In this document: positions 40,330 through 63,067 of the stretch, in pieces
Numbering within the stretch: the first letter of the stretch is position 1
Layout: every line of letters begins with the position of its first letter
Assembly (NCBI GenBank): GCA_027493055.1
Contig: JAPUDO010000060.1
Span: forward strand, 1 to 64,000
DNA: 64,000 nucleotides
Direction of reading: 5' to 3'
From: Niabella sp.
GTDB lineage: Bacteria; Bacteroidota; Bacteroidia; Chitinophagales; Chitinophagaceae
Notes under the pieces: generated by a model
What the model was told of the DNA's origin: nothing
What the model saw: only the letters and a program-made list of their open reading frames with translations
Database searches by the model: none
Translations under genes and position numbers: made by a program

Positions 40330-40340
40330 ATACATTTAAA

Positions 40341-44455: not shown

Positions 44456-45652
44456 ATGAACGGTCAAATCAATCTGGATAACAGGTTAATCAATATCCTG
44501 GGTATAGTGCAAGCCGGTGGAAAACTCCCGGAGGAAGAACAAGAGTACCTGGATAATTGGCTGAAGAGCTCGGCTTATGGGAAGGAATTACTTAATAATA
44601 TAAATGACGATGATTGGTTAAGGGAAAATCTGAAGCAGTTTCAGGATCTAAAGCAAGGCAGTAATAGCCGGTGGGAACTGTTGCAGGATAAAATTTATGC
44701 AATAAACAGGGTAAATAAGAAAGATAAGACAGTTCGCTTTCTTAATAAATGGTGGGTAGCAGCTTCCGCCGCTGCAGTATTATTGTTAGGAATGTTTATT
44801 TGGCAAACGCTGGTCAACAGGAATAGCCCATCGGTTGCTATGTCGGAAACAAATGATATACAACCTGGCAGGGAAGGAGCTGTGCTAACATTGTCTGATG
44901 GTTCTTCCATATTGCTCGATACTGTAAAAAATGGTGTTATAGCATTACAAGGCGGTGCTACAGTAAGAGTAATTAACGGAGCTTTGGTTTATGATAATAA
45001 TGGCCGGGAAGTGGTAATGAATACGATTGCCACACCTAATAGCCGGCAATATCAGCTTACACTGCCCGATGGTACAGAAGTATGGCTCAATAATGCCAGT
45101 TCTATAACGTATCCCACTGTTTTTAAAGGAAAGGAAAGAAAGATAGAGGTTACCGGAGAAGTATATTTTGAAGTGGCGAAAAATGCTGAAATGCCTTTTA
45201 AAGTAAACATCAATAACAGGGAAGAGGTAGTGGTTTTAGGGACCCATTTTAATGTAAAAGGGTATAATGATGAAGATAACACAAAGGTTACGTTACTGGA
45301 AGGATCAGTAAAAGTATCTTCTAAAGAAGGGGATGAGGTAAAAATTAAGCCGGGAGAGCAAGCTCAGGTATTCCACAAAGAAAAAAATAAAATAGCTGTA
45401 CATCCGGTAAATACTGCAGAATCCATAGCCTGGAAGAAAGGGTATTTTAACTTTGAAGGATTGAGTTTTGAAGAAGTAATGCGATTACTTGAACGATGGT
45501 ATGATGTGGAAGTGGTTTACAAAGGCCAAGTGCCCCAAATTAATTTTGGCGGTGATCTTAACAGGAATACAACGCTGAAAGGAGCCATAAAAGCGCTGGA
45601 ATATTACAATGTGCGTTTAGAGCTGGAAGGGAAAAAAATTATTGTTCATTAA
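44456..45652 (+). CDS. FecR-like anti-sigma factor
   Basis: A 398-residue inner-membrane regulator that holds the sigma factor in the cytoplasm and reads the state of the STN receptor from the periplasm. Cytoplasmic part residues 1-97, one transmembrane helix about 99-119 (WWVAASAAAVLLLGMFIW), periplasmic FecR domain (LTLPDGTEVWLNNASSITYP, VTGEVYFEVAKN, GTHFNVKGY, VTLLEGSVKV) and C-terminal DUF4974 domain (FNFEGLSFEEVMRLLERWYD, LEGKKIIVH). The ATG at 44456 follows GGAG closely; the frame is also open to a TTG at 44441. It sits between fecI and the STN-type SusC, the classical order. Confidence 0.93.
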   Translation: MNGQINLDNRLINILGIVQAGGKLPEEEQEYLDNWLKSSAYGKELLNNINDDDWLRENLKQFQDLKQGSNSRWELLQDKIYAINRVNKKDKTVRFLNKWWVAASAAAVLLLGMFIWQTLVNRNSPSVAMSETNDIQPGREGAVLTLSDGSSILLDTVKNGVIALQGGATVRVINGALVYDNNGREVVMNTIATPNSRQYQLTLPDGTEVWLNNASSITYPTVFKGKERKIEVTGEVYFEVAKNAEMPFKVNINNREEVVVLGTHFNVKGYNDEDNTKVTLLEGSVKVSSKEGDEVKIKPGEQAQVFHKEKNKIAVHPVNTAESIAWKKGYFNFEGLSFEEVMRLLERWYDVEVVYKGQVPQINFGGDLNRNTTLKGAIKALEYYNVRLELEGKKIIVH

Positions 45653-45808: not shown

Positions 45809-45873
45809 CGAATGTTTACTAATGAAAAACGATTGTAGGAACCATTTTTTAACATCAAAAACGATTGCAATTT

Positions 45874-48800: not shown

Positions 48801-49608
48801 AGATATGTGGGGTTTCGTGTCTGATGGATATTATACTGTCGATGATTTTGATGTAACACCCAACACCGGAAGCAATGCTGCCACATATCCTTATATCTAT
48901 AAGCTTAAGCAAGGGGTGGCAGATCCGTCAAAAACATTTTCGGTAGCTCAGCCGGGTTTAATGAAAGTGAAAGATATGAATGGAGATGGTTTTATCACTG
49001 AAGAAGATAAAGCGGTTATTGGCAATGGAGTGCCAAGGTCCTTCGGAGGCCTGAACCAGCAGTTTACTTACAAGAATTTTGATGCAAGCTTTTTTATCAA
49101 CTTCTCATTTGGGGGCGATGTATTGAATGCGAATAAAGTAGAGTTTACCAATGGATACCTTAACAATAACAATTTGCTGAAAGATATGGAAGGACGGTGG
49201 AAAACCGTTGATGCGGAAGGTAACCTCATACAACGGGTATCCGGTACTACCGTATATGGTGTGGATCCGGAAGTAATCAGGGCAACGAATGCTTCAGCTA
49301 CCTTATGGCAACCGGTACGCAGCACACCTGGTTATTATTTAACCAGTTGGGCGGTGGAGAACGGATCATTCATCAGGTTTAATAACCTCACACTGGGCTA
49401 TACGTTTAGAGGCGGTATTCTTCGAAGGGCTACTATAAAACGCTTGCGGGCTTACGCCACCGTCAATAATATAGCGCTCATCAGCAGCTATTCCGGTTAT
49501 GACCCCGAAGTTAATACACGCCGTTCTACGGGTGTAACACCCGGAGTTGATTATTCTGCCTATCCACGCAGCAGAGGTTACATTTTGGGTTTAAATCTTT
49601 CTTTCTAA
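45874..49608 (+). CDS. susC-like: SusC-like TonB-dependent receptor with STN domain (pair 3)
   Basis: A 1244-residue outer-membrane importer and signal transducer. Unusual N-terminus: about 61 basic and hydrophobic residues come before the true signal-like segment MKLYVILMLAAITGLYARG (Met62, ATG at 46057). Then STN domain (about 84-156), carboxypeptidase-regulatory-like domain (about 172-250), TonB-box-like LDDLVVIGYA, plug (VRGGGSITQDNSPLYIIDGV, GSRGANGVVIITTKGG) and barrel ending in LGLNLSF. Being directly downstream of fecI and fecR, it is the likely sensor for the regulatory unit. Start 45865 is also possible (three residues longer); 45874 matches the ATGCAAAAAA start of the first SusC gene. 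Confidence 0.93.
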   Translation: MQKSPKTLWSKLTFAFLKIVEFEKNIQIAATQLFLKRMPSFCRSSSDEKLRKKSNRTIFLAMKLYVILMLAAITGLYARGISQSITLKADRMPFKTVITEIKAQTGYGVLHTGNLMHTGKPVTVVAENMPLSEFLNLILKDQPITYRFSEKNILLLPKPKHLPQLNTVETEEPLSIPIIVKIEDSLGSPLTGATITVNNKKVTAITNTKGEATLNLTEGDVLEASFVGYKTQRIVVTGNTITGRILTIVLRLDMENASLLDDLVVIGYATQSKKDLTGSVTSLDAEKKLKDIPNNSLEQALVGRLAGVQIGASEGSLDPDYRIVVRGGGSITQDNSPLYIIDGVQVEDGLRSLSPQDIERIDVLKDASATAIYGSRGANGVVIITTKGGKTGTTNVTYNGIFGMNQLNKTLPVMRPSEFVLYQWERTRIASAADQTKFSNAYKVNEFSDIDSIYSGLQPIDWQEKVMGRRANMLTHNVGINGGKGDTRFNFSYTRNDQQGIVLNTDYNRNIFSLKLDQKVSNKLSVSFTTRYIETNTNGAGVSDAGNAQVNGLRNFIKYKPFLAASESADEFDEEYFNETNQGGGLGLMNPVAWSLAKYRKVRTSVFNLGGNVNYKVAKWLSFRSTAGTNINNMSVKGFNDVLRSIGNPSTTFNDMESRTFNWSNVLNYTNSGNKTAFSKNNSLTFMLGQEIYISQNDNLENRFNLYPRGITADVALSQLTQGTVVPGYPSRTLVKSTLSSFFGRGNYSYKSKYMATFTLRSDGSSKFKPGNRWGYFPSGAVAWTFSKENFMKDLTFISNGKLRFTYGTSGNNRIPDYLYQTTYTANALYGLNNSVTSFGYTANGLANPNLRWETTISRNIGLDLGFFNERLQLTVDLYSNLTNDVITRVPVSTTSGYSTQLQNTANTRNQGIEFQVSGAIVNSKEFTWNADFNISFNKNTIRSLSSGLDYYLQSSGWSNLVSNGDFIVKAGGKVGDMWGFVSDGYYTVDDFDVTPNTGSNAATYPYIYKLKQGVADPSKTFSVAQPGLMKVKDMNGDGFITEEDKAVIGNGVPRSFGGLNQQFTYKNFDASFFINFSFGGDVLNANKVEFTNGYLNNNNLLKDMEGRWKTVDAEGNLIQRVSGTTVYGVDPEVIRATNASATLWQPVRSTPGYYLTSWAVENGSFIRFNNLTLGYTFRGGILRRATIKRLRAYATVNNIALISSYSGYDPEVNTRRSTGVTPGVDYSAYPRSRGYILGLNLSF

Positions 49609-49625: not shown

Positions 49626-51632
49626 ATGAAAAAGGTATTTAAAACAATATATATAGCTGCAGCGCTGCTTGCAGCAAACGGAATGACATCATGCGAGAAA
49701 TTCCTTGACCAGCAGCCGGTATCTTCAACACCCGAGAGCATTTTGTTCAATAACCCAAACAGCGCTTTGCAGGCGGTATTAGGCGTATACAGTGTTATGG
49801 CTGGCACTAATGGGTACGGGGCCCGGTTGAGCCTGGCATTTCCTTTCGATACGGATGAAATGATTGGTAATCCGAATGGGGCAATTACAGAAGACCAACG
49901 CAGGCTGGGTGCTTACGATATTCTGCCGAGTAATTCATATCTGGCAGGTACATTCAATAATTTATACACAGGTATAGAAAGAGCAAATGTATGTATTAAG
50001 AACATTCCGGCAATGAACCTTTACGCCAATGGTACCGAAGCGCAAAAAAGAGAGCTGCAGCGTTTGTATGGAGAATCCCTCACACTCAGGGCTTTCTATT
50101 ATTCAGAGTTAATAAAAATATGGGGTGATGTTCCGGCTATATATGAACCCTCTGCTACCTTTACTAATTTTGATGTTCCTAAATCAGACAGGGATGTCAT
50201 CTATGACAGGATATTGGACGATCTGGCTGATGCTACAGCGTTGGTTCCCTGGCGTACTGAAGCCGGTGTGGGTAACGATGAGCGGATTACTAAAGGTGCT
50301 GTAAGGGCGCTCAGGGCGCGGATAGCATTGTTCAGAGGAGGATTTTCTCTTCGTAGAGATACGCGTCAGATGGAGCGCCGCCCGGACTATCTGGAGTATT
50401 ATACTATTGCAAGGGCTGAATGCGACAGCATTATAACAAACGGCTTCCATAGCTTGAACTCGAGCTTTCAGGCAATATGGGATGATAATATACTCGATGG
50501 TAAAGTTGAATCAAAAGAAGTTTTGTTTGAAGTGGCAATGGCCGGCGAGAATTCCAATACCGACTCACAGCTTGGCACCTGGAACGGCATCAGGCTAACC
50601 ATTGGTACAACCACTTCAGGGCAGAACAGAAGCTTTGTTGTGCCTACATTATTTTATAAATACGCACCTTTTGATAAACGGAGGGATGTGTCCATAGCAC
50701 CATTTAACGTGTCCAACGGTAATATTGTTGCAACTACGCTTTTAGGTGGTGCCGATGGGAAGTGGCGTACAAACTGGGTGACGCCTTCAATTACATCGCC
50801 AAAGCAGTTTTATGGCATAAACTGGGCCATCATCCGCTATTCAGATGTACTTTTAATGTTTGCCGAAGCTGATAACGAAATTAACGGAGGTCCAACTGCA
50901 AGGGCCATTGAGTTGGTAAATTCCATTCGCAGAAGAAGCTGGACAACAGGCGCCATCAAAACAATGAGCATTACAAATGGAGGTAGCGGCTATACGGCTG
51001 CACCAACTGTTACTATTACGGGAGGTAATGGCAGCGGGGCGACAGCAGTGACTACCGTAGAGGGAGGTAGTATAACAGCAATAAATGTGGTCAATCCTGG
51101 CAGCGGTTATACAACAGCTCCTGTTATTTCATTTTCAGGGGGCGGAGGAACCGGCGCAACAGTTACTTCTGTACGCACTACCATTGAAGAAGCGGATTTG
51201 ACACCTGAGCAAACAGCATCGAAAGAAGCGTTCTTAGCCGCTATACAGGATGAACGGTTACTGGAATTTGTGAGCGAAGGCATACGCAAGTACGATCTGA
51301 TCAGATGGAACTTACTGGGAACGAAAATTGCTGAAACAAAAGCCGAATTAACCAAAATGGTTAATAAGGAAGCTCCGTATGATGTTTATGCACAACGTAT
51401 GTATTACAGGCCCAATTCTCTAACATTGACATGGGGGAACTCATTCTATGCGCCATCACCTGCGTCCCTTACAGGATATACCGGTATCAATTGGGTAGCC
51501 TCTGTTACGCAGGCGAACATCATAGATAAGCTGGGCGCTAATTTCACACCGAATAAATCAGAGCTATACCCAATCGCAACTCCTGTAATAGAGGCCTCAC
51601 ATGGAGCTATTACACAGGATTATGGTTACTAG
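49626..51632 (+). CDS. susD-like: SusD-like lipoprotein with inserted GSGYT repeats (pair 3)
   Basis: A 668-residue surface lipoprotein (lipobox MTSC, Cys23; then EKFLDQQPVS). SusD core motifs: GESLTLRAFYYSELIKIWGD and the C-terminal DERLLEFVSEGIRKYDLIRW. Between the conserved helix AIELVNSIRRRSW and that block lies an insertion at about residues 447-516. It contains two similar units, each with a GSGYT(A/T)AP(T/V) motif followed by a Gly/Ser/Thr-rich stretch (codons 50964-51173), predicted to be beta-rich. This makes the protein about 70 residues longer than its two counterparts here would suggest. The insertion probably forms an extra surface domain. A dispersed palindromic repeat follows the gene. 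Confidence 0.93.
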   Translation: MKKVFKTIYIAAALLAANGMTSCEKFLDQQPVSSTPESILFNNPNSALQAVLGVYSVMAGTNGYGARLSLAFPFDTDEMIGNPNGAITEDQRRLGAYDILPSNSYLAGTFNNLYTGIERANVCIKNIPAMNLYANGTEAQKRELQRLYGESLTLRAFYYSELIKIWGDVPAIYEPSATFTNFDVPKSDRDVIYDRILDDLADATALVPWRTEAGVGNDERITKGAVRALRARIALFRGGFSLRRDTRQMERRPDYLEYYTIARAECDSIITNGFHSLNSSFQAIWDDNILDGKVESKEVLFEVAMAGENSNTDSQLGTWNGIRLTIGTTTSGQNRSFVVPTLFYKYAPFDKRRDVSIAPFNVSNGNIVATTLLGGADGKWRTNWVTPSITSPKQFYGINWAIIRYSDVLLMFAEADNEINGGPTARAIELVNSIRRRSWTTGAIKTMSITNGGSGYTAAPTVTITGGNGSGATAVTTVEGGSITAINVVNPGSGYTTAPVISFSGGGGTGATVTSVRTTIEEADLTPEQTASKEAFLAAIQDERLLEFVSEGIRKYDLIRWNLLGTKIAETKAELTKMVNKEAPYDVYAQRMYYRPNSLTLTWGNSFYAPSPASLTGYTGINWVASVTQANIIDKLGANFTPNKSELYPIATPVIEASHGAITQDYGY

Positions 51633-51787: not shown

Positions 51788-53020
51788 ATGTACAGTTTTT
51801 ATATACATAGGAAGATTTTATTAACAATGGTGCTTGGTAGCTTATGTTTTTGGGTGTTTGCCCAAAAAACGAAGACACTACCGGTGAAAAAAGAGTTGGT
51901 TTCCTTAATCAACAACCGGTTAGAAAAAGCTGCGGCTCAATACCGTTATTTTACCACACAGGCGAGTGATACGCTTTTCCCGAAAACGATCAGTAAAGAT
52001 GGTACACTGGAAAGCAGTAAAAGCTGGTGGTGGTGCAGTGGTTTTTACCCCGGTACATTGCTTTATCTTAACGAGAATAAGAGTGATGACACGCTGTATA
52101 AAAAAGCAATGCATTACCTGGGCCTTCTAGAAAAAGAACAGTACAACAAAGGTACACACGATCTGGGCTTTATGATGTATTGCAGCTTTGGTAATGCACA
52201 ACGTCTGTGGCCTGATAAAAAATACCAGGACATATTAGTGCAAAGCGCAAAATCGCTGGCGTCAAGATACAGCCCTGTTACCGGTTGTATAAGATCCTGG
52301 AACTCAAAAAACTCCTCGGATTTTCTGGTTATTATAGACAATATGATGAACCTTGAGCTATTATTCTATGCTGCTAAGGTAACAGACGATTCTTCGTTCT
52401 ACAGGATAGCTGTAAGCCATGCAGATAAAACTATTGAAAATCATTTTCGTCCCGATTATAGTTCTTTTCACGTAGTAAATTACAATTCCCAAACGGGAGC
52501 GGTAAAGCTGCGGAGGACACAGCAGGGGGCCGCTGATGCATCTGCCTGGGCGAGAGGGCAGGCGTGGGGTTTGTATGGATACACTTTAATGTACCGCGAA
52601 ACCAGGCAGCGAAAATATCTTGATTTTGCTAACCGTATTGCGGAGTTCATCTTAAATCACCCTCATCTGCCCAAAGATAAAGTGCCTTATTGGGATTTTG
52701 ATGCACCCGGTATTCCGGATGCGCTGCGCGATGCTTCTGCAGCTGCAGTAATGGCCTCGGCTTTTACAGAATTAGCAACTTATGCCGATGAAAACAATGC
52801 CCGGAAATACCTGGATGCTTCAGAAGACATGCTTACCGCGCTATCAAACCCACCCTATCAGAATGCATATAAAGAGAACAGGGGCTTTTTATTGAAGCAT
52901 AGTGTAGGTAGTTTGCCCCAGAACTCGGAAGTAGATGTCCCACTGACCTATGCCGATTACTATTATGTAGAAGCCATGATGCGTTATAAAAAACTGGCAT
53001 TTGGGAAAACGATTTTTTAG
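51788..53020 (+). CDS. GH88 unsaturated glucuronyl hydrolase (copy 2)
   Basis: A 410-residue paralogue of the gene at 27004 with the same catalytic pair, Asp125 in GTHDLGFMMY and Asp184 in IIDNMMNLEL, and the same frames WWCSGFYPG, ASAWARGQAWGLYGY and DVPLTYADYYYVEAMMRY. Signal peptide residues 1-25. It releases unsaturated uronates from lyase products. Two GH88 genes in separate transcriptional blocks suggest either two different linkages or neighbours next to the uronic acid, or expression under different control. The GH5 gene follows after 2 bp. Confidence 0.92.
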   Translation: MYSFYIHRKILLTMVLGSLCFWVFAQKTKTLPVKKELVSLINNRLEKAAAQYRYFTTQASDTLFPKTISKDGTLESSKSWWWCSGFYPGTLLYLNENKSDDTLYKKAMHYLGLLEKEQYNKGTHDLGFMMYCSFGNAQRLWPDKKYQDILVQSAKSLASRYSPVTGCIRSWNSKNSSDFLVIIDNMMNLELLFYAAKVTDDSSFYRIAVSHADKTIENHFRPDYSSFHVVNYNSQTGAVKLRRTQQGAADASAWARGQAWGLYGYTLMYRETRQRKYLDFANRIAEFILNHPHLPKDKVPYWDFDAPGIPDALRDASAAAVMASAFTELATYADENNARKYLDASEDMLTALSNPPYQNAYKENRGFLLKHSVGSLPQNSEVDVPLTYADYYYVEAMMRYKKLAFGKTIF

Positions 53021-53022
53021 TT

Positions 53023-54171
53023 ATGAAGAATATATCTGTTGTAAAAAATAAAAAAGAATCCTTCATTGTTTTGTTGCCGGCAATAATGGTGCTTCAAGTA
53101 TTGTTGCTGCTAATGAATAATCTACAGGCGCAGTCAGCTAAAGAAGTGCCCTTTGAAATGAGAAAGGGAATGAACCTCAGCGCCTGGCTGTCGCAAAATA
53201 AATTTAAAAGCGATGCCGAAAGGGAGGCCTATTTTACAGAGGCTGATTTTAAAGAATTAAAAGCGCTGGGTTTTGATCATATAAGACTTCCGGTAGCGGA
53301 AATAAATATTTATGATGAAAAGGGCAATCCTAAAGCAGAAGTAATGAAGCTGATCCATCGTACCATTGAGTGGTGCAGGGATGCTGATATGCGTATGATT
53401 CTGGATTGTCATCAAACGCGCGATCATGATTTTTCAAAATACAGCTCTATTGTTTTGTTTAACGATCCCAATGCGCTCTTCCGCTTTATTGACCTTTGGA
53501 GCAGGTTGTCGGATGAGTTTGGAAAATACCCTAATACCTTACTGGCTTACGAATTGCTTAATGAGCCTAATGCCAAGGAAAATCAAAGCTGGAATAATAT
53601 TGCCTTACCGCTTATAAAGGCAATCAGGAAAAAAGAGCCCGAGCGTATCATTCTTTTAGGTTCCAACAAAGCCAACAGGGTCAGCACATTTACCGATCTG
53701 TGCGTTCCTAAGAAAGATCCCAATATTATTCTGAGCTTTCATTTTTACTACCCTTATCTGCTTACTCATTTTAATTCAGATTCTTACAAATCACTTAAAG
53801 TTATTAAGGGCCCACTTATTTATCCTGGGCAGATAGTTCCGGATAGCATTATTACAAGGCTGGATGATAATGCAAAAAAAGTGGTCGAAAAGCATAATGG
53901 TATATTTAATAAGGACGTACTGTACCAAATGATACAGCCGGTTATTCAAAAAGCAAAGGACAATGGTCTGCGCTTACACTGCGGGGAATTTGGCGTTAAT
54001 TTCCAGTATCCTGACCGGCCTTTGCTTACGCGATATATAGAGGATGTTGTTGCCATTTTTAAAGAGCATGATATAGCTTATACTGTTTGGGGGTACAGAA
54101 AGCAGTTTGGGGTGTTTGACGATAACCGGAAGATTAAAGATCAGCGTTACCTGGATGCTATCGTAAAATAA
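53023..54171 (+). CDS. GH5 glycoside hydrolase
   Basis: A 382-residue TIM-barrel retaining glycosidase of the cellulase clan. Signal peptide residues 1-36. Acid/base Glu181 in ELLNEPNA and nucleophile Glu322 in HCGEFGVN are clear; MRKGMNLSAWL, HIRLPVAEIN, LDCHQTRDHD and YTVWGYRKQFGVFD are further family marks. GH5 covers endo-glucanases, mannanases, xylanases and others; the subfamily cannot be told by eye. It lies 2 bp after GH88 and 16 bp before the first pyruvyl-transferase-like gene, so all belong to one operon. It may cut the backbone or remove a beta-linked side residue. Confidence 0.9.
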   Translation: MKNISVVKNKKESFIVLLPAIMVLQVLLLLMNNLQAQSAKEVPFEMRKGMNLSAWLSQNKFKSDAEREAYFTEADFKELKALGFDHIRLPVAEINIYDEKGNPKAEVMKLIHRTIEWCRDADMRMILDCHQTRDHDFSKYSSIVLFNDPNALFRFIDLWSRLSDEFGKYPNTLLAYELLNEPNAKENQSWNNIALPLIKAIRKKEPERIILLGSNKANRVSTFTDLCVPKKDPNIILSFHFYYPYLLTHFNSDSYKSLKVIKGPLIYPGQIVPDSIITRLDDNAKKVVEKHNGIFNKDVLYQMIQPVIQKAKDNGLRLHCGEFGVNFQYPDRPLLTRYIEDVVAIFKEHDIAYTVWGYRKQFGVFDDNRKIKDQRYLDAIVK

Positions 54172-54187: not shown

Positions 54188-55453
54188 ATGAACAGCAGAA
54201 GACAGTTTATACAAAATGTATCTATAGCTTCAGCAGGGGCTGTGCTGCTACCTGTAACCGGTATGTTTGCAGCTTCGGGATCGCTAAAAGGAAAAAAAAT
54301 TCTTGTTCGCTCCGGCTGGCAAACGGTTAACATAGGAGATATAGGCCACACTTTTGGACTGCTGGCCATAATGGAAGAGCATTTACCCGGCGTGGAAATC
54401 ATATTATGGATAAAATCCTATGACAGGGGCGTGGCCGAATTACTGGAGCAGTATTTTCCCAAAGTGCAGCTCATTAAAAGTAAGCTGGAGGATAACGCCG
54501 CAGATGTAAAAAAAGCTTTTGATGATTGTTCTTTTTTTATACACAGCTCCGGCCCGTTTGTTACAGCACAAAAGGAATTGCAATCCTGGTGGGATATTAC
54601 GAAAAAGCCTTTTGGCATTTATGGGGTATCGTTAGATGAAGTTGGCAGTGACCTGGCTTCGCTTATTGAAAAAGCTTCTTTTTTCTACTGCCGCGATACC
54701 GAATCCTTAAAATATTTAAGAACGCTCAATAATAAATGCCCTGTACAGGGCTTTGCGCCGGATTCAACATTTGGAATAAAGATTTATAACGATAAAAAGG
54801 CCGCTGATTATTTGCAAGCGGCAGGGTTAAAAAAAAGCGGGTTTATTTGTGTGATTCCAAGATTGCGGTATACCCCTTACTGGCAAATGGTAAACAGGGC
54901 GCCTTCGGAAAGTGAAAAAGAGCGATATGCTATTTCTATGGCTTTTCAGGGACGTGATGGAGAAAAGATGCGTAGCGTAATTACCTCCTGGGTAAAAGCG
55001 ACCGGTCTTAAAGTACTGATATGTCCCGAAGTTACTTACCAGGTAGCATTTAGTAAAGAAAACTTATACGATCCGCTGCCGGATGATATAAAAAAGAATG
55101 TGGTATGGCGCGATAGCTTCTGGCTGCCTGATGAAGCTACCAGTGTTTATAAAAACGCGAGGGCGATGGTTTGCTGCGAGCCTCATTCGCTTATAATGGC
55201 AGTGGCAAATGGTATTCCCTCTATACATGTAAAGCAATCAACCGACACACGTAAAGGACAGATGTGGCGCGATATAGGGCTTGGCGACTGGTATTTCCTG
55301 ATGGATGAAACCCCGGCTTCACAGATCAGCATGGAATTACTCAATATTCATAATAATTATAGTGATGCACAAAAGAAAGTGAAGAAAGCTATGGATTACG
55401 TACGGGCGGTACAAAAAGATACGATGCTGGTCGTGAAAAAGAATATGAAATAA
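54188..55453 (+). CDS. Tat-exported polysaccharide pyruvyl transferase-like protein, copy 1
   Basis: A 421-residue protein with a twin-arginine signal (SRRQFIQ at residues 3-9, hydrophobic stretch to about 28). The rest reads as a polysaccharide pyruvyl transferase (PF04230, GT-B-like) fold: ILVRSGWQTVNIGDIGHT near residue 45 with the NxGD motif, FGIYGVSLDEVG, FYCRDTESLKYL, and the C-terminal CCEPHSLIMAVANGIPSIHV with the conserved His. Known members move pyruvate from phosphoenolpyruvate onto sugars in the cytoplasm. A Tat-exported version in a degradation locus has no obvious donor, so the reaction is unknown; it may act on, or bind, pyruvylated or related substituents (inference). A paralogue follows 25 bp later. 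Confidence 0.78.
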   Translation: MNSRRQFIQNVSIASAGAVLLPVTGMFAASGSLKGKKILVRSGWQTVNIGDIGHTFGLLAIMEEHLPGVEIILWIKSYDRGVAELLEQYFPKVQLIKSKLEDNAADVKKAFDDCSFFIHSSGPFVTAQKELQSWWDITKKPFGIYGVSLDEVGSDLASLIEKASFFYCRDTESLKYLRTLNNKCPVQGFAPDSTFGIKIYNDKKAADYLQAAGLKKSGFICVIPRLRYTPYWQMVNRAPSESEKERYAISMAFQGRDGEKMRSVITSWVKATGLKVLICPEVTYQVAFSKENLYDPLPDDIKKNVVWRDSFWLPDEATSVYKNARAMVCCEPHSLIMAVANGIPSIHVKQSTDTRKGQMWRDIGLGDWYFLMDETPASQISMELLNIHNNYSDAQKKVKKAMDYVRAVQKDTMLVVKKNMK

Positions 55454-55478
55454 AATATCCTGTTATAAAAACGTAAAG

Positions 55479-56747
55479 ATGACGAACAGAAGATCTTTTA
55501 TAAAAGAAGGGGCTGTAGCAGCTTTAGGCGCTGCTTTAATACCTTCCTGGGTGAAAGCTATAGGTACGGAAAGAAAAACGATTTTACTTTGCTCGTCCTG
55601 GCAAACTTTTAATATTGGTGATATAGCGCACACACCTGGCGTGCTGGCCATTTTTGAAAAACAATTGCCCAATGTTAATGTGATTTTGTGGCCGCACGAT
55701 GTAGCCAATGGTGTAAAAGAAATACTGGAAAGACGTTTTCCCCGTTACGCTATTGTTCAAACAGAAGAAGCGGTGGCTGCTGCTATCAAAAAAGCGGATA
55801 TGCTGGTACATGGCAGTGGGCCATCGCTGGTAGGCAGAAAAAATATTGTAAGATGGCGCAAAGAAACCAGTAAGCCTTATGGTATTTATGGTATTACTTT
55901 TCCCGGTATATATGCCGCAAAGCATGAAGTTATAAAAGCTACGCCTTTAGACACAGAGCTTGTAAGCAATGCGGCCTTCGCTTTCTTCAGGGATTCAGTA
56001 TCCCTGCAGTTTGCAAAAGATAACGGCATTTCCTGCCCTGTTATGGAGTTTGGCCCTGATGGTACTTTTGCGGTAGATCTTCACAATGATAAGGCTGCGC
56101 TTTCATTCATGAAAAAACACGGACTCAAAGAAGGTGAGTTTATGTGCTGTATTCCCCGTTACCGGTTTACTGAAGAGTGGCTGGCTAAAGGAAAGAACAG
56201 GCCTTACCGGCAGGACCATGTGGATTACAACAATAAAATGAAGGATCATGATAATGGCCCTTTACGCGAAGCTATCACCGCGGTAGTAAGGAAAACAAAA
56301 ATGAAAGTGTTGATTTGTCCTGAAGATGAAACACATGTAGCCCTGGGTAAATCCTTATTACTGGATCACCTGCCGGAGGATGTAAAGAAAAAAGTAGTAT
56401 GGAGGGACAGGTATTGGCTTACAGATGAAGCGCTCAGTACTTATAAAAGATCAGCCGGACTTTTTGGCCTGGAAATGCACTCGCCTATAATCTGTATAGG
56501 GCAGGGCGTGCCTGCCGTTGTTTGCCGCTTTTATGAACAAAGCACCAAAGGCTTTATGTGGAAAGATATTGGGTTGAACGATTGGTTGTTTGATATGGAC
56601 GATCCGGCACAAGTGAAGAATATAGTACCCACGGTACTCTCAATTGCCAGGAACCCTAAAGCAGCAAAAGCCAAAGCTCTGAAAGCAAGGGCTTATGTAC
56701 AAAAGCGACAAAAGGAAACCATGCAGATTTTAGCAAAATCTTTATAA
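55479..56747 (+). CDS. Tat-exported polysaccharide pyruvyl transferase-like protein, copy 2
   Basis: A 422-residue paralogue of the preceding gene. Twin-arginine signal NRRSFIK (residues 3-9), then LLCSSWQTFNIGDIAHTPG, YGIYGITFPGIYA, FAFFRDSVSLQFA, a CIPRYRFTEEWL segment, VLICPEDETHVALG, VVWRDRYWLTDEALSTYKRS and the C-terminal FGLEMHSPIICIGQGVPAVV with the conserved His. Segments shared by both copies, such as WQT.NIGDI.HT and MW(R/K)DIGL.DW, probably mark the active site. Both would be folded in the cytoplasm and exported ready-made by Tat, which fits a bound cofactor or metal. The LamG gene begins 1 bp after the stop. Confidence 0.78.
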   Translation: MTNRRSFIKEGAVAALGAALIPSWVKAIGTERKTILLCSSWQTFNIGDIAHTPGVLAIFEKQLPNVNVILWPHDVANGVKEILERRFPRYAIVQTEEAVAAAIKKADMLVHGSGPSLVGRKNIVRWRKETSKPYGIYGITFPGIYAAKHEVIKATPLDTELVSNAAFAFFRDSVSLQFAKDNGISCPVMEFGPDGTFAVDLHNDKAALSFMKKHGLKEGEFMCCIPRYRFTEEWLAKGKNRPYRQDHVDYNNKMKDHDNGPLREAITAVVRKTKMKVLICPEDETHVALGKSLLLDHLPEDVKKKVVWRDRYWLTDEALSTYKRSAGLFGLEMHSPIICIGQGVPAVVCRFYEQSTKGFMWKDIGLNDWLFDMDDPAQVKNIVPTVLSIARNPKAAKAKALKARAYVQKRQKETMQILAKSL

Positions 56748-56748: not shown

Positions 56749-57609
56749 ATGAAGCCTTTTATAAACAAACCTTTACTGTTGCTAACTGCCGTTTTTTATT
56801 GTGCCAGCATAAATGCAAAAGCACAAAATTTTCGCAGTGTAATTGAAAAACAGCCAGGTTTAGTTGCCTTTTGGGATTTTGCTGATACCACAGGAAAACC
56901 AATAGCAGGAAGTGCCAAAAGTGTAAAGCTTTTACCTGCCGGCCAACCAAAATTTATTTCCGAAGGGCCTTTGTCAGGCAAGAGCATTGAATTAAACGGC
57001 AAAACCGATTATTGGTATATTAAACACGAAAACACAGAAAAACTAGATGTAAAAACAAATGCCGTAACAGTAATTGCCTGGGTAAAATGGTTGGGCGGTA
57101 CAGGTTTTGTTGCCGGCAAATGGAACGAGTACAAAGATGGCGGCAAGCGGCAATACGGTTTATTTGTATCGTTGCCATATTATAACGGTACGCAACAGGT
57201 TTGTGGCCATATTTCTAAAAACGGAGGGTCAACAAACCCATTCCCTTATAGTATAGACTATTCGGCCAGTCCGCAGAAAGTGCCTTTAAACACCTGGGTT
57301 TGTGCAACGTTTACATACGATGGAAAACATATTAAATCCTATTTAAATGGCGTATTTCAGCCACGTGAGCCCGAGCTGATACAACGTACTGCCGGTTTTT
57401 TGCCTGATAAACCCGAAGGGTTAACGCAGGTTAAGAATCCGTATTACTACCCTGATGGAATGGGTAATAACGGTTCTGATTTTACTGTTGGGGCAGTACA
57501 GCTTAAAACGGGAATGGGCAATTTTTTCAAAGGCCGGATCGGTGGTATCGCTGTATTCAACAGGGCACTGAGTGATAAAGAAATAGCGCGGGTGGCGGTA
57601 ATGCCTTAA
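56749..57609 (+). CDS. Secreted LamG/concanavalin A-like domain protein
   Basis: A 286-residue protein with signal peptide residues 1-25 and a single laminin-G/concanavalin A-like jelly roll: LVAFWDFADTTG, SIELNGKTDYWYI, VTVIAWVKWLGG, NTWVCATFTYDGKHIKSYLNGV and the ending FFKGRIGGIAVFNRALSDKEI, a standard LamG_3 pattern. No catalytic residues of a known glycoside hydrolase or lyase stand out, so it is most likely a carbohydrate-binding protein. It starts one base after the second pyruvyl-transferase-like gene, which suggests it works with that pair. The three genes may form a functional module. Confidence 0.8.
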   Translation: MKPFINKPLLLLTAVFYCASINAKAQNFRSVIEKQPGLVAFWDFADTTGKPIAGSAKSVKLLPAGQPKFISEGPLSGKSIELNGKTDYWYIKHENTEKLDVKTNAVTVIAWVKWLGGTGFVAGKWNEYKDGGKRQYGLFVSLPYYNGTQQVCGHISKNGGSTNPFPYSIDYSASPQKVPLNTWVCATFTYDGKHIKSYLNGVFQPREPELIQRTAGFLPDKPEGLTQVKNPYYYPDGMGNNGSDFTVGAVQLKTGMGNFFKGRIGGIAVFNRALSDKEIARVAVMP

Positions 57610-57657: not shown

Positions 57658-59100
57658 ATGAAAAAGTACAGCAAATATTTTTTACTGATATATGTTGGGT
57701 GCATAGCGGGTATTTATGCTTCAGCTCAGCCCAACTGGGGTATGCCAAGAGTAGCCAATACCCAAACCCCTTACGGCGAGATGACGCATCGTATTAATAA
57801 TACCCCCAAATATATAGCAGCGGAAAAACCACCAATGGGCTGGAATTCATGGAACAATTTCGGGCTGCAGATAACAGAGGACGAGTTTAAAAAGCAGGTA
57901 GATTACGTAGCCGAAAAATTAAAATCTTCCGGGTATGAATATGTGGTCATTGATGCTTCCTGGTATTCACCAAGTGTATCTGCCGACAGGAAAAGCCCCT
58001 TTCACCACCCTTCGTATGCACGCCACGATGCAGAGCTGGATATGTATGGAAGGTTCCTTCCTGCAAAAAATAAATTTCCGGGTGCTAAAGGCTCGTTTAA
58101 ATACCTGGCAGATTATGTACACAAAAAGGGGTTGAAGTTGGGTATTCATATTCAGCGGGGTATTCCATGGCAGGCAGTAGAAAATGATATGCCGGTTTTG
58201 GGAACAGGTTTTAAGGCAAAAGATATAGCTAATCCTGCAGATATGTGTTTGTGGTTTAATGCAACTTATGGAGTGGATGTGAGTAAACCCGGGGGGCAGG
58301 AATATTATAATTCCATTTTTGAGCTGTATGCTTCATGGGGTGTGGACTTTGTTAAGGTAGATGATCTTTCAATGCCATACCATGCCGATGAAATAACAGC
58401 GATACGAAAAGCAATTGAGAAAACAGGCAGGAAAATGGTTTTCAGTACTTCTCCCGGCAGCACTCCTTTAACAGCCAGGATGCATATAATGAACAATGCA
58501 GATATGTTTCGTGTATCATCAGACTTTTGGGATACCTGGCCTCAGTTAAAAAAACAGTTTGAATATGCCAGACAGTGGGCTATACATAGTGTTCATGTAC
58601 CCGGCCGGTGGCCCGACCTGGATATGCTGCCGGTTGGCAAAATTGGTACGAGAAGTGGTGATGCGGGAGGCGAGCGGCAGACCAGGTTTACAAAGGATGA
58701 GCAGTTTACCTTATACACACTTTGGGCCATCAGCCGGTCCCCGTTAATTATTAGTAATGATCTCACCCAGAACGATGATTTCACATTAAAGCTGCTTACT
58801 AACAAAGAAGTGATTGCAGTGAATCAGGCCGGATCAATGCAGCGTGAAATATATAATAAGGGAGGTATTATAGCATGGGTTTCAGATGCCGGAGATATAG
58901 GCGCTAAGTACGTTGCAGTTTTTAATCTTAACGATAATGAAGAACAGGTAAATATTGATTTTAGTGACCTAAAGCTTAGTTCCGGCCTTAAAGCCAGGGA
59001 TTTATGGAAACAAAAGGATATAGGCCTGATGAAAGATAAACTGGTTTCAAAAGTTGCAGCGCATGGAGTTGTGCTTTATAAGCTGGAGAACTACAATTAG
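57658..59100 (+). CDS. GH27 alpha-galactosidase
   Basis: A 480-residue retaining enzyme that removes terminal alpha-D-galactose (some members act on alpha-N-acetylgalactosamine or beta-L-arabinopyranose). Signal peptide residues 1-23. The GH27 opening PPMGWNSWNNFGLQI is at about residue 58; nucleophile Asp235 in VKVDDLSMPY and acid/base Asp289 in RVSSDFWDTW. WAISRSPLIISNDL begins the C-terminal part, and an antiparallel beta-domain ends it (AHGVVLYKL). It replaces the common C-x-x-DxC pattern by KVDDLS, a known variant. It suggests galactose in the target glycan, which is of interest beside pyruvyl-transferase-like genes because pyruvate ketals often sit on galactose. Confidence 0.92.
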   Translation: MKKYSKYFLLIYVGCIAGIYASAQPNWGMPRVANTQTPYGEMTHRINNTPKYIAAEKPPMGWNSWNNFGLQITEDEFKKQVDYVAEKLKSSGYEYVVIDASWYSPSVSADRKSPFHHPSYARHDAELDMYGRFLPAKNKFPGAKGSFKYLADYVHKKGLKLGIHIQRGIPWQAVENDMPVLGTGFKAKDIANPADMCLWFNATYGVDVSKPGGQEYYNSIFELYASWGVDFVKVDDLSMPYHADEITAIRKAIEKTGRKMVFSTSPGSTPLTARMHIMNNADMFRVSSDFWDTWPQLKKQFEYARQWAIHSVHVPGRWPDLDMLPVGKIGTRSGDAGGERQTRFTKDEQFTLYTLWAISRSPLIISNDLTQNDDFTLKLLTNKEVIAVNQAGSMQREIYNKGGIIAWVSDAGDIGAKYVAVFNLNDNEEQVNIDFSDLKLSSGLKARDLWKQKDIGLMKDKLVSKVAAHGVVLYKLENYN

Positions 59101-59121: not shown

Positions 59122-60024
59122 ATGAAAATTCTTTACAGCGTGCTGGTTATAATTGCCTTGCTTCCTGGTGTTCAGTCACATGCACAAAAAGATGCCAGCC
59201 ACATCAGGTTATTTATAATAGGCAATAGTTTTTCACAAAATGCTTCAAGGTATTTAAAGCAAATAGCTGAAAGGGGAGATTGTCAGCTTACAATAGGTCG
59301 GGCGGAACTTGGAGGTTGCCCATTGCAAAGGCATTGGGATTCTGTGGCAGTGAACCTTTTGGACTCTTTAAGAGGGAAGGCGTATAATGGCAGGTCATTA
59401 AAAGAACTTTTGTCAAACGGCAAATGGGACATAGTAACCATTCAGCAGTATTCATTGCTTTCGGGCGATACGGCAACCTATCAACCCTATGCCCGGAAGC
59501 TGTATGCCTTTATAAAAGAGTTACAGCCCGATGCTGAAGTAGTGATTCATCAGACATGGGCCTACCGGTCAGATGCAAAGAATTTTGGAAAGATAAGTGG
59601 AAATAAAAGAGCTGGTTCTCAGAAGGAAATGTGGGAAAGATCCCGGTACGCTTACCACAAACTGGCTGGAGATTTAGGAGGGCTGCGCATTATTCCGGTG
59701 GGCGATGCTTTTTATGCAGCAGCAACGGATAAAGAATGGTCGTTTGTAAAAGATAATAGTTTTGATGAGGGAAATCCGGTACAGTCCCAACTTCCTGCCG
59801 AAGCTAATTCTTTGAACGTTGGGTATTTCTGGAAAGATGGCAGGCTTCAGTTCGATCCCAATCATGCTAATGAAGCGGGTTGCTATTTGGCGGGGCTGGT
59901 TTGGTATGGATTCCTCTTTAAACAAAACATTCAAAAAGTATCCTTTAAGCCCGGAGAAGTGTCAGAAAATTTTGCAGCGTTCCTCAAAAATACTGCACTC
60001 CAAACGCTTCGCAGCCACCGATGA
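59122..60024 (+). CDS. SGNH-type hydrolase, DUF4886-like
   Basis: A 300-residue secreted protein with signal peptide residues 1-22. The SGNH signature IGNSFSQNA gives Ser36, GGCPLQRHWD and TIQQYSLLSGD follow, and DPNHANEAGCYLAG provides Asp245 and His248 (D-x-x-H block). This pattern fits DUF4886, a family of probable carbohydrate esterases. It probably removes acetyl or similar esters from the polysaccharide or its oligosaccharides. The next gene begins 14 bp downstream. Confidence 0.8.
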   Translation: MKILYSVLVIIALLPGVQSHAQKDASHIRLFIIGNSFSQNASRYLKQIAERGDCQLTIGRAELGGCPLQRHWDSVAVNLLDSLRGKAYNGRSLKELLSNGKWDIVTIQQYSLLSGDTATYQPYARKLYAFIKELQPDAEVVIHQTWAYRSDAKNFGKISGNKRAGSQKEMWERSRYAYHKLAGDLGGLRIIPVGDAFYAAATDKEWSFVKDNSFDEGNPVQSQLPAEANSLNVGYFWKDGRLQFDPNHANEAGCYLAGLVWYGFLFKQNIQKVSFKPGEVSENFAAFLKNTALQTLRSHR

Positions 60025-60038: not shown

Positions 60039-61955
60039 ATGACTTCAAAAAGTATTATAAAAAAGACGTTCATTGCTTTGGCAGGATATATCTGCCTGGT
60101 GATGCCATTATATGCCCAAAGGATCATGGTTGTGGAACCTCCTGATATTGATCGGGTAAAGGAAATTGCAGTATTGCTGCCAGAGAAGCCGAAGGGGTTT
60201 GGTGATCCTGTTCAGGTTCGCGGCCGGTGGGACAGCCTTTACACTACCGGCGCATTTTTGCGGTTGATAAATGAAGCGGATAGCATTAGCAGCGTGCCAT
60301 TTCCTGAACTAACGGAGGCTATTTATATGAGCTATTATAAAGGGAAGGATTCTGAAACGTCCAAGCGGTTTATTATGAAACGCAGAATGTTGCTCGCAAA
60401 AATGATTTGGGCCGAATGTCTTACCAACAGGGGAACGTACATGCCTGCTATTATTCATGCGCTCCGGAGCATTGTTAATACCCGAACCTGGACGTTTCCT
60501 GCCGAAGACAGGGAAAAGACAAACTGGGAGGGGAAACGTTACACTATAGGCTTAAGCTCTTCTGCTTATGGGTCTGATATGGCTCAGGCCCTCTATCTTC
60601 TTGATAGCAAACTGCCAGGCGACTTAAAGGAACAAATAAAAACAGCCCTCTATCAAAGAATCTTTAGGCCGGTGCTTCATGCTGTAAATACCGGTAATGT
60701 TAATAATGAGTTCCGGTCTTTAAAAGATATAGGAAATCATAACCCGGTGGAGCTTGCCAATGTATTAGGCGCTGCTTTTGCAGTTCTGGAAGATAAACAG
60801 CAGCGTGCGGTGTTTGCAGCTATAGCTGAGAAATATTCGGTGAACTATTTTGAAAGTTATTTGGATGACGGCTATTGCACTGAAGGAATAGGTTACTACT
60901 CGTATGGATTTACGCACTACGTTTTTTTGAGAGAGCTGCTATGGCAGGCCACCCATGGGAAAATAGATCTGTTCCAAAGGCCCAAAGTAGCTAAAATGGC
61001 CAGGTTCGCCCCTGCAATGGAAATCATTAATAGCGTATATCCTGCTATCAGCGATTGCGAACAGTATATAAAGCCGTGGCATCAGTTAATGTATTATCTT
61101 AATAAAAACAATGATCTTGGCCTTTCAGCATATAGCCGGCTTTCCACTGATATAGAGCAGCCATCGCTTTGCTGGATGATGTTCTTTTTCCCCAACGCAG
61201 CATCCGCATATCCCGATAGCGATAATAGTTTCAAATCATTGCCGGTACGTGATTATTTTAATGATGCTGGCGTGCTTACGGTAAGGCCTCTTGCAGGTTC
61301 GCTCTTTAATATGGGCGCTACTTTGAAGGGCGGCAATAATGCGGAACAGCACAACCATAATGATTTAGGCTCTTACTCCATAGTTGTAGGGGACGAATTA
61401 ATTACCGGCGATGTTGGCCTTGCCACTTACACGCCTAAATACTTTACAAAGGAACGATATGATCTGTTTAAAACAACCTCATCCTACGGGCACAATGTGC
61501 CTCTTATTAATGGCATTCAGCAGTTTGCCGGTAAAGATGCGGTAGCCAGAATTATAAAGACCGGCTTTAGTGATCAGCAGGATGAATTTGCTATGGATCT
61601 TGCTTCCGCATATAAAGCGGATGACTTAAAAAAGCTGGTAAGGACGTTCACTTACAACCGGGGAAGTAAACACACTCCAGGTTATTTGCGGGTACGGGAT
61701 GATTTCTGTTTTAGCAAAAATACGGCTTTTGAAACCGCTATAATTACACGATACGGATGGCGCAGGGTTAATGAAAATACAATTGAAATTATTGGTGCGC
61801 GTGCTGTACTGCAGGCTACGATCCATAGTTCTGTGCCATCTTTTAACATAAGTAGCGAGGTGATTGATGAAGGGCCAATGCCTTATACCCGGATTGCCAT
61901 AAAGTTGCCAGCAACTATGAATGGACATGTGAGTATTGAGTTTAAAACAAAATAA
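60039..61955 (+). CDS. Heparinase II/III-like protein, candidate polysaccharide lyase
   Basis: A 638-residue secreted protein (signal peptide residues 1-26). An (alpha/alpha)n toroid (about 30-390) is followed by an antiparallel beta-sandwich, as in heparinase II/III, alginate and chondroitin lyases. Candidate active-site residues are Asn233-His234-Asn235 in IGNHNPVELANV, Tyr286/Tyr287/Tyr289 in EGIGYYSYGF and His438/His440 in QHNHNDLGSYS. These match the layout in which Tyr and His abstract the C5 proton of a uronic acid. It is the best lyase candidate in the window and would feed the two GH88 enzymes. The lyase family number and substrate are not determinable by eye. Confidence 0.75.
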   Translation: MTSKSIIKKTFIALAGYICLVMPLYAQRIMVVEPPDIDRVKEIAVLLPEKPKGFGDPVQVRGRWDSLYTTGAFLRLINEADSISSVPFPELTEAIYMSYYKGKDSETSKRFIMKRRMLLAKMIWAECLTNRGTYMPAIIHALRSIVNTRTWTFPAEDREKTNWEGKRYTIGLSSSAYGSDMAQALYLLDSKLPGDLKEQIKTALYQRIFRPVLHAVNTGNVNNEFRSLKDIGNHNPVELANVLGAAFAVLEDKQQRAVFAAIAEKYSVNYFESYLDDGYCTEGIGYYSYGFTHYVFLRELLWQATHGKIDLFQRPKVAKMARFAPAMEIINSVYPAISDCEQYIKPWHQLMYYLNKNNDLGLSAYSRLSTDIEQPSLCWMMFFFPNAASAYPDSDNSFKSLPVRDYFNDAGVLTVRPLAGSLFNMGATLKGGNNAEQHNHNDLGSYSIVVGDELITGDVGLATYTPKYFTKERYDLFKTTSSYGHNVPLINGIQQFAGKDAVARIIKTGFSDQQDEFAMDLASAYKADDLKKLVRTFTYNRGSKHTPGYLRVRDDFCFSKNTAFETAIITRYGWRRVNENTIEIIGARAVLQATIHSSVPSFNISSEVIDEGPMPYTRIAIKLPATMNGHVSIEFKTK

Positions 61956-61966: not shown

Positions 61967-63067
61967 ATGAAACTTATAGCTGGTTTACTTATCATTAGTC
62001 TGTCCTGTGCTGCTAACAAGGCTGACACGGTGGCGCCCTTTAAAGCCAGCCAGGGAATCCTGCTTTTTAATTCAGGTTTTGAAGGAGATACATACGTTAG
62101 TATAGCTTCAGCCCAGATTGAAAAGCTTGCAGGAGCAGATCATACTGTTGAAGCCCCCAATAACTGGACAACTTTCTGCACAAAAGGAGGCTATCCTGCT
62201 GCAGGAAATTTCAGCATTTTTTACGAAGGTGGTGATAGCACCAAACGTAAAGCCCGTTTGGTGAAAGATCCGAAAAATAGTATGAACACGGTATTAAAGT
62301 TTACGGTATATGAGGCAAATGTTGTAAAAGAAGGGGAGGCGGATCCTTATAAAACAAGGATACAGGGCCAGGTAAGCAATACGGCTCCGGGTATCAAAAA
62401 ATATTACCAATCGGTAAAGATGTATTTCCCATCGGCTACCATGAATGTATTGAAAAATTATCCCGAAAATATAACCTGGTTCTCTCTGGCCGAGTTTTGG
62501 AATAATGCGGCCTGGGGAAACGTTCCTAAAGATCCTTACCGGCTTACAGTGGGTATGGGACATAAGGCTGGTGGCGCAAATCCGTTTTACTTTCATTTCA
62601 GCTGCGACAAGTATGCCATTCAATTTAAAGCGGATGGAAAAACACCTGAAAAATATATTCCTACTAAGATTGCCGGCAGGGGTAATGAAATCTTCTCCAT
62701 TCCATTTGATACCTGGCTTACTGTTGAGTATTACTACCAGGAAGGGAATTGGGCAGCTTTTTCAACAAGGCCCGCCGGACATTTTTATATGTCTGTACAA
62801 CCGGAAGGCAAACCAAAGATCATTTTGTTCAACGAAAGGGTAGCTACTATTCATCCTGACGAAACGGTGCCGCCCGATGGTTTAACATCCTATCACCCTT
62901 TGAAGTTTTATACCAATAAACAAATTGCCATGTATATGAAAGCAAATCATACTCCGCTGGAAATGATGTGGGACGATTTAAAGATATATAACGACAGGGT
63001 CCCGGACGATGCAGCCCTTATTGCGGAGTTAAATAAACCCTTAACTTTTTATCAACGGCTTAAATAG
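61967..63067 (+). CDS. Jelly-roll protein, candidate polysaccharide lyase (PF14099-like)
   Basis: A 366-residue secreted protein; the short N-terminal hydrophobic stretch ends in LSCAAN, possibly a lipoprotein cysteine at residue 14. The sequence NSGFEGDTYV, KARLVKDPKNSMNTVLKFTV, KTRIQGQVSN, VKMYFPSATM, ITWFSLAEFWNN, FDTWLTVEYYYQEGN and a final MMWDDLKIYND give the strand pattern of concanavalin A-like jelly rolls such as heparin lyase I or glucuronan lyase. I cannot identify certain catalytic residues, so a binding role is also possible. It follows the heparinase II/III-like gene by 11 bp, which supports a role on the same uronic-acid-containing chain. Confidence 0.55.
   Translation: MKLIAGLLIISLSCAANKADTVAPFKASQGILLFNSGFEGDTYVSIASAQIEKLAGADHTVEAPNNWTTFCTKGGYPAAGNFSIFYEGGDSTKRKARLVKDPKNSMNTVLKFTVYEANVVKEGEADPYKTRIQGQVSNTAPGIKKYYQSVKMYFPSATMNVLKNYPENITWFSLAEFWNNAAWGNVPKDPYRLTVGMGHKAGGANPFYFHFSCDKYAIQFKADGKTPEKYIPTKIAGRGNEIFSIPFDTWLTVEYYYQEGNWAAFSTRPAGHFYMSVQPEGKPKIILFNERVATIHPDETVPPDGLTSYHPLKFYTNKQIAMYMKANHTPLEMMWDDLKIYNDRVPDDAALIAELNKPLTFYQRLK

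Follow-up and report, generated by a model that had tools for sequence, protein, structure and literature searches.

Predicted Tat-exported members of the polysaccharide pyruvyl transferase family in glycan-degradation loci as candidate depyruvylating enzymes

Results

The window analyzed here is a stretch of 64,000 nucleotides from Niabella sp. (Chitinophagaceae, Bacteroidota; GenBank assembly GCA_027493055.1, contig JAPUDO010000060.1, positions 1 to 64,000 of the forward strand). It contains a run of genes, all on the forward strand, in the order extracytoplasmic function (ECF) sigma factor, FecR, SusC, SusD, GH88, GH5, PPT1, PPT2, LamG, GH27, DUF4886, heparinase-like protein, and possible lyase; with its SusC/SusD pair and co-directed glycan enzymes, this run is a polysaccharide utilization locus (PUL). 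This study concerns the adjacent genes PPT1 (54188..55453, 421 amino acids) and PPT2 (55479..56747, 422 amino acids), whose products are 39% identical across 434 alignment columns. Both products are predicted to be exported by the twin-arginine translocation (Tat) pathway, and both belong to a clade of Pfam family PF04230 (PS_pyruv_trans) that we call E-type; the loci of its members are labeled L with a number.

Family and fold

A preliminary description of this DNA, made from the letters alone, had placed the pair on the PF04230 fold, and profile searches bear this out. PPT1 matches PF04230 at E 3.1e-15 (57.3 bits) and PPT2 at E 7.6e-14 (52.7 bits), against a gathering cut-off of 25.3 bits, with matches covering profile positions 1-276 of 280; the lack of profile similarity that had been named as counter-evidence did not materialize. 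When a profile of 40 family proteins, PPT1 and PPT2 included, was compared with one of 16 ordinary PF04230 proteins, the match had a probability of 99.2% (E 1.2e-19, 336 columns), and this kinship is therefore not a matter of chance. Both proteins carry the N-IGD motif and an E(P/M)HS motif, the latter reading E-P-H-S in PPT1 (E331 and H333; 55178..55189) and E-M-H-S in PPT2 (E332 and H334; 56472..56483), in each case at the position of R337-L338-H339 of the pyruvyltransferase Pvg1p. The glutamate two residues ahead of the histidine (E-x-H) is the key feature that the preliminary description did not include. The genome, whose assembly is listed as 99.99% complete, yielded no further PF04230 match and hence no cytoplasmic PF04230 pyruvyltransferase.

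Structure prediction, proposed earlier as a check on the fold, gave GT-B-like AlphaFold models of both proteins, with mean pLDDT of 91.5 for PPT2 and 89.6 for PPT1. UDP-sugar 2-epimerases top the Foldseek matches listed for both models, and nearly all the matches listed are enzymes that we take to be of the GT-B class; the models thus place PPT1 and PPT2 on the GT-B fold. The UDP-GlcNAc 2-epimerases and related GT-B enzymes are the best fold matches (best E 1.5e-10 and 3.0e-11), although they are nucleotide-sugar enzymes with only ~10-14% identity and TM ~0.5. Pvg1p (5AX7) was missing among the 50 Foldseek matches listed for either model, and sequence searches of the PDB with single proteins and with the family profile gave no convincing relative; the link of the family to Pvg1p was obtained solely via ordinary PF04230 proteins as intermediate. 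Among 10 E-type and two ordinary proteins scanned, no NCBIfam model besides the TAT signal reached its cut-off. For the models of the ketal pyruvyltransferases CsaB and WcaK (TIGR03609, TIGR04006, NF007452), the highest scores among the 10 E-type proteins were 30.5 bits for CsaB (cut-off 213.1) and 16.6 for WcaK (cut-off 399), but these cut-offs do not set the clade apart, because the two ordinary proteins also miss that for CsaB (30.6 and 67.0).

Predicted export

The paralogous pair described earlier, with its twin-arginine, N-IGD, and (P/M)HS motifs, is present as stated. The signal regions span 54188..54277 in PPT1 (SRRQFIQ) and 55479..55562 in PPT2 (NRRSFIK), with the arginines at residues 4-5 and a hydrophobic stretch after each pair. 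The NCBIfam TAT model (cut-off 16.7) is passed by PPT2 (18.0) and narrowly missed by PPT1 (15.5); for the Pfam TAT_signal model (cut-off 22.7), PPT2 falls below (13.4) and PPT1 is not listed. The genome encodes TatC. With motif, hydrophobic stretch, and TatC in place, both proteins are predicted Tat substrates, of which PPT2 alone passes the curated TAT model.

A motif-plus-hydropathy test found a Tat-like signal in 117 of 119 E-type proteins, compared with 1 of 30 ordinary PF04230 proteins and 90 of 808 neighboring open reading frames (ORFs). The two exceptions are the protein of L076, whose start looks Sec-type, and that of Nonomuraea. The pattern is different among 21 further proteins from a Verrucomicrobiota sample, classified by eye: 14 start almost at the core and are signal-less, four are Tat-like, and the rest comprise one lipoprotein-like, one Sec-like, and one long, unclear start. 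We know of no supply of phosphoenolpyruvate (PEP) in the periplasm.

Donor-site residues

Pvg1p was mapped onto the clade with a profile of 16 ordinary PF04230 proteins, which finds and aligns 5AX7 (2e-17), the chain number plus 53 giving Pvg1p numbering by hand count. On this alignment, D106, R217, R337, and H339 of Pvg1p correspond to D48, R171, E332, and H334 of PPT2, and K361 probably corresponds to K357. In Pvg1p, D106A nearly abolished activity, and R217A and R337A were not expressible (PMC4872226); in CsaB, activity was lost in R148Q/K and H308A/R, and the PEP kinetics of K328R were changed (PMC10435577). R337 is the proposed PEP-binding arginine of Pvg1p.

At the R337 position, 138 of 140 E-type proteins have glutamate, one has aspartate, and one has cysteine (87, 1, and 1 by clusters at 80% identity); the cysteine occurs in L029:11295, where the surroundings of the motif look disturbed. 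The 30 ordinary proteins have R in 22, S in seven, and T in one (20, 7, and 1 by 80% clusters). Among the 21 Verrucomicrobiota-sample proteins, the E-x-H motif is present in 20, with aspartate in the remaining one. R171, H334, S113, E282, and W313 (PPT2 numbering) are present in 140/140 E-type proteins, K357 in 139, W41 and D48 in 136 each, and H51 in 135. The R217 and H339 positions are likewise kept in 30/30 ordinary proteins, whereas W41, H51, and W313 occur in none of them and E282 in one. Given these counts and the CsaB and Pvg1p mutants, the clade leaves the donor site largely as it is, apart from one residue that is changed in a fixed way.

PPT1 and PPT2 thus belong to PF04230 but, judged from the alignment, depart from the donor-site set of a PEP-dependent ketal pyruvyltransferase (R217, R337, H339, K361) at one residue, R337 being glutamate, and their predicted location makes that membership further doubtful. 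The preliminary description had argued that an ordinary PEP mechanism cannot operate here, and the comparison agrees in finding the PEP site not intact. That these are nonetheless ordinary PEP-dependent ketal pyruvyltransferases, exported by chance or misread as exported, would account for PF04230 membership and for the retained R217 and H339; set against the near-invariant change from arginine to glutamate, the Tat-like signal, and the catabolic run, we regard it as very improbable.

In the PPT2 model the conserved residues sit near strand ends, and they therefore probably face the cleft. S113, R171, E282, W313, E332, H334, and K357 are each kept in at least 138 of 140 proteins, across phyla and compartments, in the manner of an active site. 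A noncatalytic glycan-binding protein built on the PF04230 fold, which could be expected from tandem paralogs beside SusCD and an adjoining gene of lectin fold (LamG), fits poorly with so many conserved polar residues and appears unlikely.

Extent of the clade

A scan of 84,980 species genomes gave 545 pattern matches, 500 of them encoding relatives. The best 80 of these 500 were kept: 35 from Bacteroidota and 45 from Verrucomicrobiota or Planctomycetota. Further members are plasmid-borne Spirosoma and Nonomuraea (actinomycete) proteins and one from a genome of the window's class. A Spirosoma record carries the annotation "polysaccharide pyruvyl transferase family protein." Since the resulting 85-row set (the best 80 plus five) is biased to close relatives, 20 regions of the Verrucomicrobiota sample, with the 21 proteins mentioned above, were added. 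The 140 proteins examined span Bacteroidota, Verrucomicrobiota, Planctomycetota, and one actinomycete, and form 89 clusters at 80% identity. The 30 ordinary proteins, which form 28 such clusters, were taken from a single phylum sample as its best-scoring loci; before counting, fused L101 and L116 were trimmed and a wrong-strand ORF in L108 was replaced.

The clade is uncommon in samples of the window's phylum and class, with strong matches in two of 395 genomes in each (the window's own included) and weak further matches numbering two and one, respectively. It is commoner in the Verrucomicrobia sample (the phylum of L032), where 25 of 194 genomes have matches at E <=0.001, two of them weak or partial. 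One match from a Verrucomicrobiota-sample genome (G519:C61:3413-4645) contains four in-frame TGA codons, which would suit a decayed gene or another code. In a tree of 84 chosen rows, built by a quick method, the E-type rows fall to one side of a single branch (SH-aLRT 99); as the ordinary rows have very long branches, monophyly is only suggested.

Genes of the Niabella locus

The PUL begins with the ECF sigma factor (43784..44386; Pfam Sigma70_r4/r2) and a FecR-type anti-sigma regulator (44441..45652; FecR 3.4e-18, FecR_C). These are followed by a SusC-like TonB-dependent receptor (45865..49608, although the true start may be further in; Plug, STN, CarbopepD_reg_2) and a SusD-like binding protein (49626..51632; SusD_RagB 1.5e-26). 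The next gene, 51788..53020, encodes a GH88 unsaturated glucuronyl hydrolase, with solved GH88 structure 3wiw matched at E 4.5e-100 and 1vd5 at 1.1e-44; its Pfam GH88 score is 20.2 bits, below the cut-off of 26.6. The GH5 gene (53023..54171; Pfam Cellulase 2.8e-36) has as its closest solved relative the endoglucanase CelC (1cec, E 7.7e-49).

Downstream of the pair, the LamG gene, encoding a LamG/ConA-like lectin-fold protein (56749..57609; PF13385 1.4e-14), starts one base past the end of PPT2, its ATG being at 56749 and the PPT2 stop ending at 56747, as first described. The alpha-galactosidase (57658..59100; Melibiase_2 2.6e-31, Melibiase_C) is presumably of the GH27 type. Next come a DUF4886 protein of no known function (59122..60024; PF16227 6.4e-42) and a heparinase II/III-like protein (60039..61955; Hepar_II_III_C 6.8e-6; closest solved 8r75, 1.2e-30), probably a lyase, which is 39-41% identical to proteins adjoining E-type genes in Dyadobacter loci L015 and L026. 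The run ends with a possible polysaccharide lyase (61967..63067), 32% identical to L011:1188-2171; the L011 protein matches PF14099 at E 6.4e-4, under the cut-off, and 61967..63067 has no PF14099 match of its own. Gaps from GH88 to the last gene of the run measure 1 to 48 bases.

The degradation-locus setting given in the preliminary description holds, with GH88, GH5, alpha-galactosidase, and heparinase-like genes in one SusCD PUL. The sulfated-galactan substrate suggested there fares less well. The GH88, the heparinase II/III-like protein, and the possible further lyase point to an acidic, uronate-containing glycan, and more than 28 kb separate the six sulfatases found from the PUL downstream of them. 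Those sulfatases, with rhamnosidase-like and GH2 genes, form a separate sulfated-glycan cluster (97-15251). Elsewhere in the window are two adjacent sortilin/BNR-repeat proteins (15358-20082), a second GH88 gene adjoining a 3-keto-disaccharide hydrolase gene (PF06439; 27004-28994), and, ahead of this PUL, two tandem SusC/SusD pairs followed by a DUF5627 gene (31889-42059).

Gene neighborhoods across the clade

The preliminary description had raised the question of how often a Tat signal and this fold occur together in PULs; beside the Tat-like signal in 117 of 119 proteins, 29 of 35 Bacteroidota E-type loci have SusC no more than 10 kb away, and 27 have SusD. Among 20 ordinary PF04230 loci of the window's phylum, used as a control, SusC was found in two and SusD in none, with SusC/SusD profiles that were built from the E-type loci. 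Of the six Bacteroidota loci without SusC or SusD, two (L010, L011) are on short contigs. By reading, SusC or SusD lies inside the same co-directed run in 25/35. Two or more E-type copies are present in at least 20 of 84 loci, counting the window. The pair with its LamG gene had been proposed as a single undescribed system, a claim that we would narrow, since the two genes are a single instance of a clade that is widespread; LamG stands beside one other member, in L151, where LamG and melibiase genes near a signal-less E-type gene (1305-4099) echo the window's LamG and alpha-galactosidase.

Enzymes of uronate-containing glycans are recurrent partners. Apart from the window, 9 of 36 Bacteroidota loci have them close to E-type genes, against 0 of 20 control loci: PF05426 lyases in L011, L015, and L026, PL8 enzymes adjoining the E-type genes in L035, L040, and L045 and within the L020 locus, and GH88-like proteins in L022 and L024. 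Since seven of the nine positives supplied queries, only the zeros and the two new loci (L020, L045) constitute a test; the Nonomuraea locus (L009) likewise supplied a query. There, inspection by eye shows a LacI-like regulator and ABC-permease-like ORFs next to the E-type gene, which also adjoins genes for a solute-binding protein and a heparinase II/III protein; the latter has no similarity to the window's heparinase-like protein at the threshold used. In 13 of the 35 Bacteroidota loci (L016, L019, L020, L021, L023, L025, L029, L030, L031, L033, L034, L044, and L070, by reading), SusD is followed by only one to three E-type genes; ORFs of at least 130 amino acids were counted, and other enzymes may sit past a 250-base gap, as does PL8 in L020.

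These neighbors favor the main rival explanation, namely, that the target of E-type proteins is a uronic-acid or other acidic residue itself, on which they would work as a glycosidase, lyase, or epimerase of GT-B fold; R171, H334, and K357 would then bind the sugar carboxylate, and E282 and E332 would be the catalytic acids. Its partners would be the uronate enzymes of the window and of the loci just listed, including the heparinase II/III of L009. Further, as 13 runs hold SusCD and then E-type genes alone, the E-type protein may itself depolymerize, which explains enzyme-poor runs better than ketal hydrolysis does. The top fold matches, UDP-sugar 2-epimerases, some of them for a glucuronate derivative, also suit this explanation, although they may reflect merely the common GT-B fold. 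It leaves the retention of the pyruvyl-donor residues, and nearly always of the acceptor-side aspartate, without a need in the new chemistry, and we consider it doubtful.

Several signal-less members also lie in sugar-degradation loci, and E-type activity therefore seems not to be bound to one compartment; in the Verrucomicrobiota sample, the neighbors of such members include GH123-like, GH35, melibiase, GH39, acetylesterase, sugar transporter, and aldolase genes. For those of the 45 Verrucomicrobiota/Planctomycetota loci in which the E-type gene has company in its run, 58 neighbors were picked from 100, and no family dominates among the 25 of 84 families listed. Genes for FAD-dependent oxidoreductases (PF12831) recur beside E-type genes (L004, L039, L041, and others) and make up 4 of these 58 neighbors. 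RraA-like or HpcH/HpaI aldolase genes are found near E-type genes in L141, L038, L014, and L073, with an enolase-superfamily gene in L141; such neighbors may hint at sugar-acid or pyruvate-forming pathways.

The neighborhoods also bear on whether these proteins are still transferases that work in the periplasm and take a pyruvyl or other group from a non-PEP donor, for instance by transketalization between glycans. Most donor residues and the GT-B fold are kept, the E-type genes of L036 are followed by one for a TMEM260-like O-mannosyltransferase, and by eye, glycosyltransferase-like or nucleotide-sugar-like ORFs lie a few kb away in L032, L146, and L152. The scanned neighbors are, however, mostly of glycan-degrading or uptake families, L036 having the sole glycosyltransferase (with 25 of 84 families listed in one scan), and a transferase role seems improbable.

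Discussion

Family, fold, predicted export, the residue swap, and the catabolic context of the E-type proteins were computed here. A role in glycan breakdown is well supported; taken together with independence from PEP, which the altered donor site suggests, it makes a joint claim that we hold to be probable. As to substrate, chemistry, and residue roles, removal of a pyruvyl group is the simplest reading, because the residues that would hold this group are kept, an arginine proposed to bind the donor is lacking, proteins occur with and without export signals, and the genes follow glycan importers. We infer that E-type proteins may be periplasmic pyruvate-ketal hydrolases acting on oligosaccharides imported by SusCD, a tentative mechanism to which we would give a probability of somewhat under two in five. 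It is slightly more tentative to propose that they are the missing depyruvylating enzymes at large, the swap of arginine for glutamate having turned a pyruvyltransferase scaffold into a hydrolase, in periplasm and cytoplasm and in at least four phyla.

Under this mechanism, pyruvate ketals (1-carboxyethylidene groups) would be removed from oligosaccharides brought in by the adjoining SusCD pair. R171, H334, and K357 of PPT2 would grip the pyruvyl carboxylate, much as the equivalent residues of CsaB and Pvg1p would hold PEP, and the oxygen of the sugar would be handled by D48 (D106 in Pvg1p). The general acid and base could be E332, which replaces R337, and E282, a residue specific to the clade; they would protonate the leaving oxygen and activate water. 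Water would take the part that the sugar has in the forward reaction, and the products would be pyruvate and the free sugar. The acidic oligosaccharide thus exposed would pass to the GH88, GH5, GH27, and lyase-like proteins.

Several observations weigh against ketal hydrolysis. A pyruvylated substrate has been identified for no member; the retained carboxylate-binding residues would suit uronic acids equally, and the partner enzymes act on uronates; and a hydrolase that only strips ketals leaves the runs of SusCD plus E-type genes without a depolymerase. Of the PL8 enzymes, the one tested, standing for PL8 beside three loci, is nearer chondroitinase AC (9.7e-76) than xanthan lyase (1.1e-28). 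The catabolic context is also uneven: five uronate-enzyme families occur in none of 65 Verrucomicrobiota/Planctomycetota loci, in 14 of 45 such loci (hand count) the run consists of nothing but the E-type gene, L147-L150 have no catabolic-looking neighbors on inspection by eye, and ribosomal-protein-like genes are sometimes near, as in L060 (by eye). At the level of residues, D48 is not universal, being threonine in the four divergent members L147-L150, and aspartate stands there in just 16 of 30 ordinary proteins; K357 is one column off the K (23) or R (7) of the ordinary proteins. Finally, glutamate at the R337 position is not proof of lost PEP binding, since 8 of 30 ordinary proteins have serine or threonine there and R337A was not expressible.

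The E-type proteins have the same fold as the PF04230 ketal pyruvyltransferases CsaB, WcaK, and Pvg1p and retain R217 and H339, along with D106 in nearly every case and probably K361; they differ in the change of R337 to glutamate, in the characteristic W41, H51, E282, and W313, and in being predicted to be exported or encoded in sugar-degradation loci. PvGal-ase, like the activity proposed here, concerns the breakdown of pyruvylated glycans, but it is a GH1 enzyme that frees the whole pyruvylated galactose (PMC6090015). Xanthan lyase of family PL8 (2e24, 6f2p) handles a pyruvylated acidic polysaccharide, and PL8 genes stand beside some E-type genes; it frees pyruvylated mannose (PMC6801904). 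Xanthan itself was considered as the substrate of the PL8-bearing loci, an idea weakened by the nearness of the PL8 tested to chondroitinase AC.

In the portions of the literature covered, we recognized no gene for a pyruvate-ketal hydrolase, and a review of xanthan breakdown names no ketal-removing enzyme in the passages concerned. Nor did we recognize an account of an exported or catabolic PF04230 protein, in a literature coverage that lay outside most subscription journals.

Pyruvate ketals are found on many polysaccharides. With its 500 relatives from a single genome scan, the clade would be a concrete and directly testable candidate for their removal. Even if the chemistry differs, the annotation "pyruvyl transferase" is probably misleading for these proteins, given that they lie in degradation loci, lack an arginine proposed to bind PEP, and are the sole candidate enzymes in some SusCD runs.

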